Source of the DNA: JBGPLH01 sp041486365 [NCBI: Thermodesulfobacteriota bacterium]
Lineage (GTDB): Bacteria > JAUYMQ01
Direction of reading: 5' to 3'
DNA length: 10,730 nucleotides
NCBI GenBank assembly: GCA_041486365.1
Contig: JBGPLH010000088.1
Span: forward strand, 1-10,730
Below the pieces are notes generated by a model, which was given only the letters and a program-made list of their open reading frames with translations, searched no databases and was not told where the DNA came from. Shown piece by piece: positions 1-5,150 of the stretch (position 1 is its first letter; each line of letters opens with the position of its first letter). The translations under genes were made by a program, and so were the position numbers.

Positions 1-917
1 ATCACGTCGGTCCCGATGCCGATGTCCGGCAGGTCGCGGGTGAAGCGATCCAGCAGCACGCGGAAGGCCGCGGCGCCGTAGGGACGGCGCATACGCCGGA
101 GCACCGCGTCGCTTCCGCTCTGGAGCGGGATGTGCAGGTGATCGCAGAAGACCTTCGGTTGCCCCGCGATCGCGGCAATCACGTCGTCGTCGAACTCGCT
201 GGGCTCCATGCTCGACAGGCGCACCCGCGCGAAGCCCGACTCGCGGCGGACGCGCCCGAGCAGATCGGCGAGCCGCGCGGGCGGGTCGAGGTCCCGCCCC
301 CAGGAGCCGATGTGCGGGCCCGTGAGCACTAGCTCGCGCGCGCCCTCCTCGCGATGGCGGGCCATCTCGGCGAGGACGTCCTCGGCCCGCGCGCTGCGCG
401 GGAGCCCACGCGCATGGGGCACAATGCAGAAGGAGCAAAAGACGTCGCAGCCGTCCTGGACCTTGACCATCCGCCGCGTGCGAGCCGGAAGCGGCCGTCC
501 CGAGACCTCGAACGCCGGAAGCCGCCGCTCCCTGAGGATTCTGCCGACGCGCACCTCGGGCTCCGCGAGGCGCCCGCGCGCCGCAATCGCATCGAGCTCG
601 GCGGCGATCCGATCCTTGCCGCCGTGGCCGATCACGTAGTCGACCGGGAGGCGCGCCGCCTCCGACGGGCGCGTCTGGGCGTAGCAGCCAGTGAGGACTA
701 TGACGGCGCCGGGATTCTCGCGGCGGAAGCGGCGGGCGAGCTGGCCGGCCTCCAGATCAGCAGCGCGGGTCACGGAGCAACTGTTGAGCACGATGACGTC
801 GGCGTGGGCGGGATCGACGGCCGGCTCGATGCCCCGCCGCGACGCCACGTCGGCGATGGATTCGCCCTCGACCTGGTTCACCTTGCAGCCGAGCGTGTGG
901 ACGGCGAGCCTCGTCAC
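1..917 (-). CDS. mtaB: tRNA t6A37 methylthiotransferase MtaB, 3' end cut by window edge
   Basis: Radical-SAM enzyme that converts t6A at position 37 of ANN-decoding tRNAs to ms2t6A, using two 4Fe-4S clusters. My reading of the minus strand gives about 305 codons with no stop before the window edge. The N-terminal methylthiotransferase domain has its three cluster cysteines at C11 (LGCKVN), C47 (NSCSVT) and C78 (TGCYAQ). The radical-SAM motif CDVFCSFC places cysteines at 157, 161 and 164 and is followed by PHARG. LTGPHIGSWG and HLHIPLQSGSDAVLRRMRR are typical of MtaB rather than MiaB or RimO. The C-terminal part, including any TRAM domain, lies outside. The start is GTG, sharing four bases (GTGA) with the mnmA stop. 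A strong GGAGGAGG ribosome site about 8 bases upstream lies inside the mnmA end, so translation is probably coupled. Family assignment is secure; MtaB over MiaB is likely. Confidence 0.9.
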   Translation of the reverse strand, partial: MTRLAVHTLGCKVNQVEGESIADVASRRGIEPAVDPAHADVIVLNSCSVTRAADLEAGQLARRFRRENPGAVIVLTGCYAQTRPSEAARLPVDYVIGHGGKDRIAAELDAIAARGRLAEPEVRVGRILRERRLPAFEVSGRPLPARTRRMVKVQDGCDVFCSFCIVPHARGLPRSARAEDVLAEMARHREEGARELVLTGPHIGSWGRDLDPPARLADLLGRVRRESGFARVRLSSMEPSEFDDDVIAAIAGQPKVFCDHLHIPLQSGSDAVLRRMRRPYGAAAFRVLLDRFTRDLPDIGIGTDV

Positions 918-1987
918 GCGATCCACCCTCCTCCGAGCAATAGATCGCCCCGGTAGAAGACCGCCGCCTGCCCAGGCGCCACGGCCCGCGCCGGCGCCGC
1001 GAGCGTGACCTCCGCGCTGTCCGCCGACAGGAACCGCAGGAGCGCCTCGGCCTCCGGATGCGCATGGCGGATCTTCACCGACACGCGGGCTGTGCGCGGC
1101 GGGCGTCCCGCGATCCAGTGGATGCCGCTCACCTTGAAGGTCTCCCGTCGCAGCGCGCGATCGGGGCCGACGACGACGCGGTCCGTGGCCGGGTCCAGCC
1201 GCAGGACGTACCAGGGGCCGCCCGGGAGCCCGAGTCCCCGGCGCTGCCCCACGGTGTAGCGGTGAATTCCCGGGTGCCGCCCGAGCACCTTGCCGTGCTC
1301 ATCCACGATGTCGCCCGGGCCCGGCGCGCGGTCGCCCATCTCTCGCGCGAGAAACGCGCCCGTGTTCCCGTCCGGGATGAAGCAGATCTCCTGGCTCTCG
1401 GGCTTGTCCGCGAGGGGGAGCCCGTAGGCGCGGGCCCGGGCCCGCACTTCCTCCTTCGTGAGATCGCCCACGGGGAAGAGAGCGCGGGCGATCCGCGAGG
1501 GATGGAGGTTGAAGAGGAAGTAGGTCTGGTCCTTGCGGCGGTCGACGGCCCGGAGCAGCCGGGGCCGCCCGTCGCGGCCGTCCCGGCGCCGGACGTAGTG
1601 GCCGGTGGCGACGAGGTCGGCGCCGACCTCCGCCGCGCGATCGACGAGCGCGTCGAACTTGAGGCTCCGGTTGCAGGCCACGCAGGGGATCGGCGTGCGC
1701 CCCGCGCGGTACTCCTCCAGGAAGGGACCGACGACGGTTTCGCGAAAGGACGACTTGAAATCCAGGACGTAGTGGCGAATCCCGAGGGCCGTCGCCGCGC
1801 GCCGCGCGTCGCGCACGTCGGCGGGCCCGCAGCAGCGGCCGGAGCCGGCGGCCTCGGAGGCGTCCCCGTAGTCCCACAGATGCATCGTGACGCCGATCAC
1901 CTCGTGGCCCGCATCCAGGAGCAGGCCCGCGGCCACGGCGGAGTCGACGCCGCCGCTCATCGCCACGAGGACGCGCATCTTCTTCAT
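914..1987 (-). CDS. mnmA: tRNA-specific 2-thiouridylase MnmA
   Basis: ATP-dependent enzyme that puts sulfur on U34 of Glu, Gln and Lys tRNAs (s2U34), taking persulfide sulfur derived from IscS. The 357-residue length is normal. The PP-loop SGGVDS is at residues 11-16, followed by MHLWDY (35-40) and the CC...DVRDARR segment (52-63). The expected catalytic pair is C105 in the ACN motif and C202 in ESQEICFIPDG. DQTYFLFNL (153-161), TVGQRRGLG (245-253) and the C-terminal AVFYRGD (342-348) are also family signatures. The ATG at 1987 is preferred because AAGGTG lies about 8 bases upstream; ATG at 1978 is a weaker alternative, and longer upstream reading in the same frame has no MnmA character. The gene follows iscS after 76 bases, in which I see no convincing promoter or terminator, and overlaps mtaB by four bases. 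Placement after iscS fits direct sulfur delivery; no tus relay genes are visible. Confidence 0.96.
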   Translation of the reverse strand: MKKMRVLVAMSGGVDSAVAAGLLLDAGHEVIGVTMHLWDYGDASEAAGSGRCCGPADVRDARRAATALGIRHYVLDFKSSFRETVVGPFLEEYRAGRTPIPCVACNRSLKFDALVDRAAEVGADLVATGHYVRRRDGRDGRPRLLRAVDRRKDQTYFLFNLHPSRIARALFPVGDLTKEEVRARARAYGLPLADKPESQEICFIPDGNTGAFLAREMGDRAPGPGDIVDEHGKVLGRHPGIHRYTVGQRRGLGLPGGPWYVLRLDPATDRVVVGPDRALRRETFKVSGIHWIAGRPPRTARVSVKIRHAHPEAEALLRFLSADSAEVTLAAPARAVAPGQAAVFYRGDLLLGGGWIA

Positions 1988-2063: not shown

Positions 2064-3227
2064 CTACGCGGCCGAGACCGCCGCGGCGCCCTCGCGCACG
2101 CGCGCCACCACGCGGGGAATCGTCTCGAGGGCGCGGTCGACGTCGGCACCAGTGCTGTTCCAGCCCAGGGAGAGGCGGATCGTCGAGCGCGCCACCGCGT
2201 CGTCCAGCCCCATGGCACGCAGGACCGGCGAGGGCTCCACGCTCCCGCTCGCGCAGGCCGATCCCGCGGAGACGGCGATCCCCTCGAGATCGAGCGCCAC
2301 GAGCACCGACTCCCCGGCCGCGCCGGGGAACGCGACGCTGAGGGTGTTGGGCAGCCGCCGGAGGGGATGTCCGTTCAGCCGCGCGTCCGGGATCGCCTCC
2401 CGGATCCCCCGCCAGAGGCGATCGCGCAGGGCGGCAATCTCCGGCGGACGCTTCTCCATTTCCTCCTCGGCCACCCGCGCCGCGGCTCCGAGCGCCACGA
2501 TCCCGCCCACGTTCTCGGTCCCGGCCCTCCGCCTGCGCTCCTGGCCGCCGCCGTCCATCTGCCGGGCAATCGCCACGCCGCGCCGCACCCAGAGCGCTCC
2601 CGTGCCCTGGAAGGCCCCCATCTTGTGCCCGGAGAGCGACAGGAGATCGATCGGGAGGGCCGACACGTCGATCGGCACCTTGGCCAGGGCCTGCACCGCG
2701 TCCGTGTGGAAGAGGACACCCCGCTCCCGGCAGAGGGCGCCGATGGTCTCGACGGGGAAGAACACCCCTGTCTCGTTGTTCGCGAACATCGCCGAGACGA
2801 GCACCGTGTCGGGCGCGATCGCCTCTTCGACCTGCGCCGGATCGATCAGCCCCTCGGAGGTCACGCGAAGCACCGTGAGCCGGACCCCCAGCCGCTCGGC
2901 GTGGAGCGCCGCCTCGCGCACCGCCGGGTGTTCCACTCCCGTGATGATCAGGTGGGCGCCGCGGGGAGCGGGCGACTCGAGCACGCCGCGGATCGCGAGG
3001 TTGTCGCTCTCGGTGCCGCCGCTCGTGAAGACGATCTCGTCCGGCCGCGCGTGCAGGAGGGCCGCGAGCCGCTCACGCCCCTCCTCGACCGCCTCTCGCG
3101 CACCGCTCCCTTCCAGCGACGCGCTCGAGGGATTTCCCGAACGCTCCGCGAGGAACGGGAGCGCCGCCTCGAGCGCCTCGGGCCGGGGGGGCGTCGTGGC
3201 GTTGTGGTCGAGATAGACCCGCGTCAT
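2064..3227 (-). CDS. iscS: Cysteine desulfurase, IscS/NifS group I
   Basis: PLP enzyme that takes sulfur from L-cysteine, leaving alanine and an enzyme persulfide for Fe-S clusters and tRNA thiolation. The 387-residue protein starts YLDHNATTPP, a NifS-like form. Other visible features are FTSGGTESDN (67-76), H100 in GVEHPAV, NNETG (150-154), D176 and Q179 in HTDAVQA, the PLP lysine K202 in SGHK, and catalytic C325 in SAGSACASGSVEPSPVL, whose length is that of a mobile group I loop. The ATG at 3227 shares ATGA with the iscR stop; a GGGGAAG ribosome site is just upstream. A GTG 18 bases earlier in frame is less likely because that site would then fall inside the gene. It ends in TAG. It sits between iscR and mnmA with no iscU, iscA or hscBA gene in the window, so tRNA thiolation may be its local job. 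IscS versus NifS naming is uncertain; desulfurase activity is not. Confidence 0.95.
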   Translation of the reverse strand: MTRVYLDHNATTPPRPEALEAALPFLAERSGNPSSASLEGSGAREAVEEGRERLAALLHARPDEIVFTSGGTESDNLAIRGVLESPAPRGAHLIITGVEHPAVREAALHAERLGVRLTVLRVTSEGLIDPAQVEEAIAPDTVLVSAMFANNETGVFFPVETIGALCRERGVLFHTDAVQALAKVPIDVSALPIDLLSLSGHKMGAFQGTGALWVRRGVAIARQMDGGGQERRRRAGTENVGGIVALGAAARVAEEEMEKRPPEIAALRDRLWRGIREAIPDARLNGHPLRRLPNTLSVAFPGAAGESVLVALDLEGIAVSAGSACASGSVEPSPVLRAMGLDDAVARSTIRLSLGWNSTGADVDRALETIPRVVARVREGAAAVSAA

Positions 3228-3736
3228 GTCTTCTTCCCCGAGCACCGACCCCCGGCGGCGGCCGCCTGCTCATCGCCATGGGAGAAGCCGCCGTCCAGAG
3301 CCATGGGGATCGGCGTGGAGGGCTGCTGCGTCATGCGGGACAACTCGTCGAGCTTCACCGAATCGAGGAACTCCCGGATCCGGCCGGCCAGCTCCTTCCA
3401 CACGAGGTGAGCGGCGCAGCAGTCCGCGCGCGAGCACTTGCGGTCCGAGGCGGGGTCGACGCAGTAGATCGGCTCGAGCTTCTCCTCCACCGCCTCGATG
3501 ATCTCGGCCACGGAGATCTCGCCCGGGCTCCGCGCGAGGAGGTAACCACCGCCGGGACCCCGCACGCTGCGCACGATGGAGTTTCGCCGCAGCTTCAGAA
3601 ACAGCTGCTCGAGGTAGCTCACCGAGATGTCGCCCCGCGCGGCGATCTCCCGGAGGCTCACGGGGCGCGAGTCCCCGTGGTTGGTCAGATCGACCAGCGC
3701 GCGAACGGCGTAGGATCCGCGGGCCGTGAGTCTCAT
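3224..3736 (-). CDS. iscR: Rrf2-family Fe-S sensing regulator, IscR-like
   Basis: DNA-binding repressor that in well-studied relatives carries a 2Fe-2S cluster and controls Fe-S and cysteine genes. It has 170 residues. The winged-helix part runs from [17 protein letters not shown] through the recognition region [18 protein letters not shown] (39-56) and the wing [13 protein letters not shown] (59-71). Candidate cluster ligands are C92, C101, C107 and H110. C101-X5-C107-X2-H110 matches E. coli IscR spacing, whereas C92 to C101 is three residues longer. C106 lies beside C107. After about residue 138 there is a low-complexity Gly/Ala/Gln tail with another cysteine (C165). The ATG at 3736 shares ATGA with the cysE stop, and GAGGAG lies 6 bases upstream. 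The cysE neighbour also allows a CymR-like cysteine role, but cysteines in the ligand positions favour IscR. It probably represses its own operon through the site at 4644-4668. Confidence 0.9.
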
Positions 3737-4512
3737 GGCTTGCTCCTCGTCGGGGAGGTCTCGGGCGACGGCGCGATACCGGCGCTCTCCCCCTCCCCAT
3801 CCTGCGGGGCCGCCACGGGCGCTCCCCGCTCCAGGTCGTCCATCGTCCCCGTCGCGATCTGCAGGCGGGCCTCGAGCTCAAGGATCTCCTTCTGTAGCAC
3901 CGCCATCTGGCCGAACAGCGCGTGCAGCGCCTGGCCCTCCGGATCGGGAAGCGCGTTGTGGTCGAGCCGCAGGTGGCCCTGCGCGTCACGGCACTCGGGG
4001 TGGTCCTGCACGACTTTCCCGGGAATGCCAACCACGGTCGATCCCTCCGGCACGTCCCGCACCACGACGGAGCCCGCGCCGATCTTGCTCTCGCGCCCGA
4101 TCGTGAGGGGGCCAAGGACCGTCGCGCCGGCGCCGATCACCACGCCGTCCTCCACCGTCGGGTGCCGCTTCTCCCGCCGCCAGGAGGTGCCTCCGAGCGT
4201 CACGCCCTGGTAGAGCGTGACGTCATCCCCGATGTCCGCCGTCTCGCCGATCACCACGCCCATCCCGTGGTCGATGAAGAACCGCCGACCAATGCGAGCG
4301 CCGGGATGGATGTCGATTCCCGTGAGGATGCGGCCGACGTGGGAGATCGCCCGGGCGGGGAACCTCATCTGGCCGATCCAGAGCGGGTGGGCGATGCGGT
4401 GCAGGAGCAGAGCGTGGAAGCCCGGGTAGAGGAAGATCACTTCCCACACGGATCGCGCCGCCGGATCCCGGTCGAACACGCAGCGGATATCCTCGCGGAT
4501 CCGGTCGAGCAT
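3733..4512 (-). CDS. cysE: Serine O-acetyltransferase with coiled-coil tail
   Basis: Makes O-acetylserine from serine and acetyl-CoA, the first step of cysteine synthesis. From the ATG at 4512 the protein has 259 residues. The N-terminal helical part ([19 protein letters not shown]) resembles the short Bacillus-type enzyme, and is followed by a left-handed beta-helix of hexapeptide repeats (about 62-165). Likely active-site residues are D67 in GIDIHPGA, H82 in [12 protein letters not shown] and H117 in KRHPTV. Residues 196-229 look like a coiled coil and 230-259 like a disordered Pro/Gly/Ser tail, ending in Lys-Pro rather than the C-terminal Ile that docks into CysK in the E. coli complex. 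GAGGA lies 9 bases before 4512; an in-frame ATG at 4548 has a poorer ribosome site and adds 12 residues lacking family character. It overlaps iscR by four bases and is first gene of the sulfur operon. Confidence 0.93.
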
Positions 4513-4569
4513 GACGGGACGTCCTCGGCGCCAGGGCCCGGGGGCCATGCGGGCAGCTCGCCTTCAGAG

Positions 4570-4594
4570 GTGGCGGAGCCCGAAGGTCCGCCAC
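4570..4594 (-). promoter_or_regulatory. Stable stem-loop in the cysE leader
   Basis: The minus strand has an 8-base perfect inverted repeat, GTGGCGGA and TCCGCCAC. The 9-base apex can fold further as CC-TTCG-GG with one unpaired C, giving a C(UUCG)G tetraloop, an unusually stable RNA loop. It lies between the predicted transcription start near 4647 and the cysE ATG at 4512, in a leader of about 135 bases. No U run follows, so it does not look like an ordinary intrinsic terminator. It may protect the mRNA or affect cysE translation. The fold is visible in the sequence; any function is inference. Confidence 0.45.
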
Positions 4595-4643
4595 TCCGGC
4601 GCGCGGTGCCGCGAATCATGAAGCGGGAAGGTAACTTGGCCGA

Positions 4644-4668
4644 ATCCCCCCACAAGGTAATCGGGTAT
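4644..4668 (-). promoter_or_regulatory. Candidate IscR type 1 operator on the -10 element
   Basis: Read on the minus strand, this 25-base sequence matches the E. coli IscR type 1 consensus (ATASYYGACTR half-site plus its inverted partner) at 17 of 25 positions by my count. The left half ATACCCGATTA matches 10 of 11. In the right half the last six bases, GGGGAT, match 5 of 6, but the preceding bases are poor. Its centre (4656) falls in the predicted -10 hexamer, so bound protein would block RNA polymerase. The third position downstream is iscR itself, after cysE, which fits autoregulation. The consensus comes from gammaproteobacteria, and the relative here may read a different site. Confidence 0.5.
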
Positions 4669-4682
4669 CCCGGGGGTGTCAA
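4654..4682 (-). promoter_or_regulatory. Sigma70-like promoter of the cysE-iscR-iscS-mnmA-mtaB operon
   Basis: On the minus strand a perfect -35 hexamer TTGACA (4682-4677) is followed by a 17-base spacer and TACCTT (4659-4654), which keeps T1, A2 and T6 of the -10 consensus. Transcription would start near 4647. The element lies in the 188-base gap between the receiver gene and cysE, where a promoter for the sulfur operon is expected. No intrinsic terminator was recognised after the receiver gene, so read-through from upstream is also possible. Confidence 0.55.
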
Positions 4683-4700
4683 TCGCGCTGCAAGGCTTGC

Positions 4701-5150
4701 TCAGGCGGGGTCGGGGAGCTGGTTGGTCACGTACCAGTAGTGAAGGAGTCTTTCGATCTTGTCCATCAACTCGTTGTACTTGAACGGCTTTATCACGTAC
4801 GAGTTGGCGCCCTCGGCATAGGACGACTGGATGTCCACGGGGCTCGAGGAGGTCGTGAGGACGACGACCGGGAGCGTCCTGTGACTCGGCGCCGCTTTGA
4901 TCTTCCGGAGGACTGTGATCCCGTTCTCCTTGGGAAGCTTCACGTCCAGGAGCACGAGGTTCGGACGTGGAGCGTTCTCCTGGATGCGGTACTTCCCCTC
5001 GTGGAAGAGGAAGTCCAGCGCCTCCTCCCCATCGTGGGCGATGTAGATCTCGTCCACCAGCCCGCTCCCCTTGATGGCGCTGGTGATGATCTCGATGTGA
5101 TCCGGGTTGTCCTCCACGAGGAGCACCCGCGACTTCCCCTTCTCTGACAC
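4701..5150 (-). CDS. Single-domain response regulator, Rcp1-like receiver
   Basis: A 149-residue CheY-like phosphoreceiver with no output domain, so it should act through protein contacts or phosphorelay rather than DNA binding. Receiver residues are all present: acidic pair E13-D14 in LLVEDNPDH, phospho-acceptor D69 in LVLLDVKLPK, T99/T100 in VVVLTTSS, and K121 in VIKPF. The NPDH start, the insertion around DFLFHEGKY and the C-terminal HYWYVTNQLP place it with the Rcp1 group, whose characterised members pair with phytochrome-type kinases. The GTG at 5150 is supported by GGAGG about 8 bases upstream and by a candidate promoter at 5181-5210. No histidine kinase or photoreceptor gene is in the window, so its partner is unknown. 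It stands between the competence-like gene and the sulfur operon without overlapping either, probably as its own transcription unit. Confidence 0.9.
   Translation of the reverse strand: MSEKGKSRVLLVEDNPDHIEIITSAIKGSGLVDEIYIAHDGEEALDFLFHEGKYRIQENAPRPNLVLLDVKLPKENGITVLRKIKAAPSHRTLPVVVLTTSSSPVDIQSSYAEGANSYVIKPFKYNELMDKIERLLHYWYVTNQLPDPA

Follow-up and report, generated by a model that had tools for sequence, protein, structure and literature searches.

A candidate IscR operator on the -10 box of a cysE-iscR-iscS operon promoter in a high-GC bacterial lineage

The promoter of the E. coli iscRSUA operon carries IscR operators upstream of the regulator's own operon; under the scoring used here, for which it served as the positive control, it gives two strong matches to the type 1 consensus (24/25 and 22/25), one of which embeds the -35 element. 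Type 1 sites are bound best by the reduced [2Fe-2S] form of IscR, according to the available text of PMC12594620. In P. aeruginosa, the agreement of footprinted type 1 sites with the E. coli consensus ranges from 64 to 76%, and sites A and B of the isc promoter (68 and 76% identity, footprinted) are thought to repress by hindrance of RNA polymerase, as far as described in the accessible sections of PMC6599224. A third arrangement, cpe1786-iscS-iscU-trmU of C. perfringens, places an Rrf2/IscR regulator next to a desulfurase and a tRNA thiolation gene, with cysE located elsewhere together with cysK (PMC2940859, from the part of the paper available).

The window analyzed here, a stretch of 10,730 nucleotides, comes from a high-GC (70%) and apparently uncultured lineage. 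Like the E. coli iscRSUA promoter, it has an IscR-type site upstream of the regulator's operon, and the left half of this site is one base off the left half of the first E. coli site, ATACCCGACTA. In contrast to E. coli, there is a single weaker site centered on the -10 box, the operon begins with cysE, and within the window mnmA and mtaB follow iscS in place of the scaffold gene iscU, which is also present in C. perfringens. The operon comprises the following genes.

3733 to 4548, minus strand: cysE, serine O-acetyltransferase (TIGR01172, 246.5 bits, cut-off 210.65); the start may be 4512
3224 to 3736, minus strand: IscR-like Rrf2 regulator (above the TIGR00738 cut-off, with the ligand positions)
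2064 to 3227, minus strand: IscS/NifS-type cysteine desulfurase (TIGR03402, 471.5 bits, equivalog cut-off of 530.75 not reached)
914 to 1987, minus strand: mnmA, tRNA 2-thiouridine synthase (NF001138, 421.7 bits, cut-off 284)
1 to 917, minus strand: mtaB-like radical SAM methylthiotransferase (best model TIGR01579), running off the window

The desulfurase falls short of both the NifS and the IscS equivalog cut-offs of NCBIfam, and the mtaB-like fragment scores 264.8 bits with TIGR01579, under the cut-off of 357.05. Co-transcription is supported by stop/start overlaps, ATGA at the cysE-iscR and iscR-iscS junctions and GTGA between mnmA and the mtaB-like gene. The overlap of cysE and iscR leaves no space for an iscR promoter between them, and therefore iscR is most simply read together with cysE; a promoter may lie inside cysE. 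Upstream of the promoter, the same strand encodes a receiver-domain protein, a ComEA-like protein, citramalate synthase, aspartokinase, TsaE and an NAD(P)H-hydrate enzyme. The receiver-domain protein (4701-5150, minus strand), in which no output domain was seen, adjoins the promoter. The cysE leader contains a GC-rich inverted repeat, GTGGCGGA...TCCGCCAC (4549-4620, minus strand), not seen by eye in the related locus described below; the leader folds no better than its shuffles (z 0.18), and the window contains no Rfam match at or above the gathering score.

The regulator passes the Rrf2 superfamily model TIGR00738 (130.9 bits, cut-off 73.3). The IscR equivalog TIGR02010 is its best-scoring model at 150.2 bits, below the cut-off of 207.55, and we therefore call the protein IscR-like. 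The original prediction of an IscR-like protein with candidate cluster ligands agrees with the alignment: the pattern C-x8-C-x5-C-x2-H falls on C92, C98, C104 and H107 of E. coli IscR (numbering as in the available text of PMC3899308), so that all four positions are present, with the loop between the first two cysteines three residues longer than in E. coli. The recognition helix and the wing closely match those of E. coli IscR, including the RGPGGGYL wing and the equivalent of E43, and the solved structures that score best against the protein are IscR chains. These features bear on the possibility that the regulator is a CymR-like sensor of cysteine rather than of Fe-S clusters, the leading position of cysE in the operon then reflecting cysteine control. 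In C. perfringens the Rrf2-iscS-iscU-trmU genes are up 3- to 6-fold under cysteine limitation, and their regulator shares 50% identity with CymR and 37% with IscR (PMC2940859, available text), a protein nonetheless named IscR in the title of a later paper. The window protein scores only 93.7 bits with the CymR equivalog NF047409, failing its cut-off of 195, against 150.2 bits with the IscR model, and together with the four retained ligand positions this makes a cysteine sensor quite unlikely here.

The promoter region holds four features.

4677 to 4682, minus strand: -35 hexamer TTGACA, read from the sequence and identical in the related locus L001
4654 to 4659, minus strand: -10 hexamer TACCTT, 17 nt from the -35 hexamer; TATCTT in L001
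4644 to 4668, minus strand: candidate type 1-like IscR operator, 17/25 against the E. coli consensus, left half 10/11
4638 to 4687, minus strand: block conserved in L001, with 43 identities in a 50-column alignment, containing the unexplained C-rich spacer stretch

The promoter was predicted with these hexamers and this spacer, and all of its coordinates are correct; our promoter scan omitted it because the -10 box matches TATAAT at 3/6 positions and the scan requires 4/6 (the L001 box has 4/6). The operator match also came out as originally described. The 25-mer ATACCCGATTACCTTGTGGGGGGAT (4668-4644, minus strand) has its center at 4656, within the -10 hexamer, and agrees with the E. coli type 1 consensus ATASYYGACTRWWWYAGTCRRSTAT at 17/25 positions, or 68%, which is within the 64 to 76% range of the published footprinted sites. 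The matches are distributed as 10/11 in the left 11 positions, 1/3 in the middle and 6/11 in the right 11 positions. No other place in the window scores 17/25; 16/25 occurs at five places. Among 2000 dinucleotide shuffles of the 200-nt region before cysE, 56 scored at least 17, and the match alone is thus unpersuasive: by itself it is weak and only marginally significant. The fit to the P. aeruginosa type 1 motif (15 of 19 informative positions, equalled by 179/2000 shuffles) is nothing special either. With a matrix built from 11 other, AT-rich relatives, the window site scores poorly, at -10.1 bits and rank 7 among 21412 positions in the symmetric form of the matrix, or at -7.8 bits and rank 9, which counts against an IscR site.

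It is conservation, not the consensus score, that makes the candidate site convincing. Of 212 relatives in the scan of genome contigs for the regulator, the best 80 were retained, so that nearer kin may exist; the nearest among these 80 is L001, from a MAG labelled Deltaproteobacteria, with an IscR 70% identical to that of the window. There the order is aspartokinase, citramalate synthase, ComEA-like protein, receiver protein, and then iscR-iscS, with no cysE at that place; a receiver protein thus stands upstream of iscR in L001 too. Alignment of the intergenic region before cysE in the window with that before iscR in L001 gave 50 columns with 43 identities and a score of 63, where 1000 shuffle pairs reached 29 at most. 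The neighboring ComEA-receiver and citramalate-ComEA intergenic regions both score 18, as chance would give (262/1000 and 355/1000 shuffles), and are unconserved. On this comparison selection seems to act on the shared block, which also seems to stay with the regulator's operon with or without cysE.

Within the 25-mer, 21 of 25 positions are identical in the two loci and 16 of the 17 consensus matches of the window are kept. The left half is identical, and three of the four differing positions fall in the right half. The conservation that the original prediction expected of both half-sites therefore holds, in this one near relative, for the promoter and the left half, which keep their positions, and holds in part for the right half. 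Taken alone, the L001 site is the better match of the two: 18/25 to the E. coli consensus (17/2000 shuffles), 18 of 19 informative positions of the P. aeruginosa motif (1/2000 shuffles), and -0.9 bits, rank 3 of 13440 positions, or 0.5 bits, rank 4, with the matrix from the 11 relatives. A search of the genome of L001 for further copies of the operator (a 21-mer with at most three mismatches) returned the iscR promoter itself, with none, and one place with three. The best CysE candidate in that genome is 38% identical over 105 residues, below the level of a CysE match. Apart from the iscR locus, this genome contains a suf cluster with an Rrf2 gene of its own at its head; the best type 1-like match within 250 bases upstream of that gene is 16/25, reached by 313/1000 shuffles. 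This weak match shares the register of the window site relative to TTGACA.

Conservation of the block could also mean that only the promoter is maintained and that its resemblance to an operator is fortuitous. The shuffle frequency of the window match agrees with such a reading, as do the facts that the block includes both hexamers and that the C-rich spacer is conserved too, but the conservation spans the spacer and continues beyond the -10 box to GGGG, which the hexamers alone would not need. Considering in addition that the left half differs by one base from that of an E. coli operator and that such sites precede iscR in many relatives (see below), we regard a fortuitous resemblance as unlikely.

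The spacer between the -35 hexamer and the operator (4669-4676, minus strand) is CCCCCGGG in the window and CCCCCGGA in L001, almost wholly conserved, and neither sigma70 nor IscR should need it. Its stretch CCCCCGG, conserved to the same degree as the operator, is explained by neither of the two. Another transcription factor might read the C-tract and G-tract (CCCCC...GGGG) or the repeat CGGG-ATA-CCCG, elements that are partly conserved between the two loci. Their arms are short, L001 has an imperfect copy of the CGGG-ATA-CCCG repeat, and we consider this explanation highly improbable. To our knowledge, no factor is associated with either element.

Type 1-like sites at a shuffle frequency of 0.01 or less were found upstream of 71 of 108 IscR loci; independent cases are far fewer because many of the loci are close kin. 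In the first 49 loci, 17 have such a site (L001 among them), 22 have one at 0.05 or less, and for 32 no upstream site reaches 0.01; in the 59 further loci, nearly all from Pelagibacteraceae, the site is present in 54 and no upstream site reaches this frequency in five. The sites of the Pelagibacteraceae genes (L025-L080) are mostly very strong, up to 24/25, and lie about 27 bases before the start codon. CysE was searched for in 56 loci and heads the cluster in five. Two of these, L011 (a Magnetococcales MAG) and L091, have the cysE-iscR-iscS order of the window, and in both a type 1-like site (20/25 and 21/25, respectively) precedes cysE and embeds the -35 element, unlike the -10-centered site of the window. 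In the other three (L087, L099 and L105) no such site precedes cysE; in L087, a 19/25 candidate separates cysE from iscR.

What differs in the window, to judge from these comparisons, is the centering of the site on the -10 box and its weak right half. Eight of the 17 relatives with good sites have the arrangement of E. coli site B, with a -35 element that begins at site position 5 and an acceptable -10 after it, and L003, L004, L008 and L107 have TTGACA at the same position with no -10 acceptable by the rule used. The -35 element starts 6 and 5 bases ahead of the site in L098 and L090, and L101 and L102 show none of these registers. In the window and L001 it starts 14 bases ahead of the site, which places the -10 box in the middle of the site, and this register was seen only in these two, in a comparison with the 17 relatives and in an exact search of 386 genomes. 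The search for the -35/operator pattern gave four places in three genomes, the iscR promoter of L001, one place in G133 and two in G040, and its reversed form gave one place. Both G040 places are inside open reading frames and the G133 place was taken for chance on reading by eye, so that the 386 genomes hold no further iscR case of the exact arrangement. A 17-base core matches viral contigs nine times, about the number expected by a rough estimate, and the pattern-based search of these contigs gave no relative of the regulator.

Taken together, the operator call is probably right. We consider it likely that IscR loaded with an Fe-S cluster binds at 4668-4644 and represses cysE-iscR-iscS-mnmA-mtaB. 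In the predicted mechanism, a sigma70-type promoter (4682-4654) would drive the operon; an IscR-type dimer carrying its cluster would bind the operator, chiefly at its conserved left half, and would block RNA polymerase because it occupies the -10 box. Under Fe-S shortage the apo form would leave the operator, and derepression would raise CysE (cysteine precursor), IscS (sulfur mobilization), MnmA (tRNA thiolation) and IscR itself. Repression in this organism we infer from the likeness of the ligands and recognition helix to those of E. coli IscR and from the binding data in the available text of PMC12594620, and binding, cluster dependence, the direction of regulation, the dominance of the left half and a transcription start near 4647 are predictions of the same kind. 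With that start, the site would occupy approximately -21 to +4, whereas the P. aeruginosa sites lie at -67 to -18 (PMC6599224, accessible sections). A more ambitious version seems to us rather doubtful and is offered tentatively. In it, IscR would repress in this lineage from a -10-centered operator with one dominant half-site, and the conserved C-rich spacer would form part of a longer recognition element or of a second one; a single compact promoter would then link Fe-S status with cysteine supply, desulfuration and two sulfur modifications of tRNA.

The original prediction also held that the regulon is wider than the E. coli isc operon, which is true of this operon and is no novelty, as E. 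coli cysE itself has a type 1-like site upstream. That candidate (20/25, 0/1000 shuffles) lies inside gpsA in E. coli K-12 and begins 184 nt upstream of the cysE start, and a Yersinia study lists cysE among the genes searched for type I sites (PMC8262890, available text); with C. perfringens, they provide precedents for a link between Fe-S sensing and both the supply of cysteine and the thiolation of tRNA. The cysE-iscR-iscS order is found elsewhere too, and the wider coupling is not new. In the literature text searched, largely excluding subscription papers, no paper contains two or more of five phrases for cysE-iscR, and 17 papers mention IscR, cysE and Fe-S. The case for an IscR operator is well supported by the comparative data yet ordinary, a variation on a well-known theme and a modest addition that brings no new principle. 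It suggests that an IscR-type regulator controls its own operon in a high-GC, apparently uncultured lineage, from an operator shifted onto the -10 box, and it offers a concrete test case of how far an IscR site may move along a promoter and still repress.
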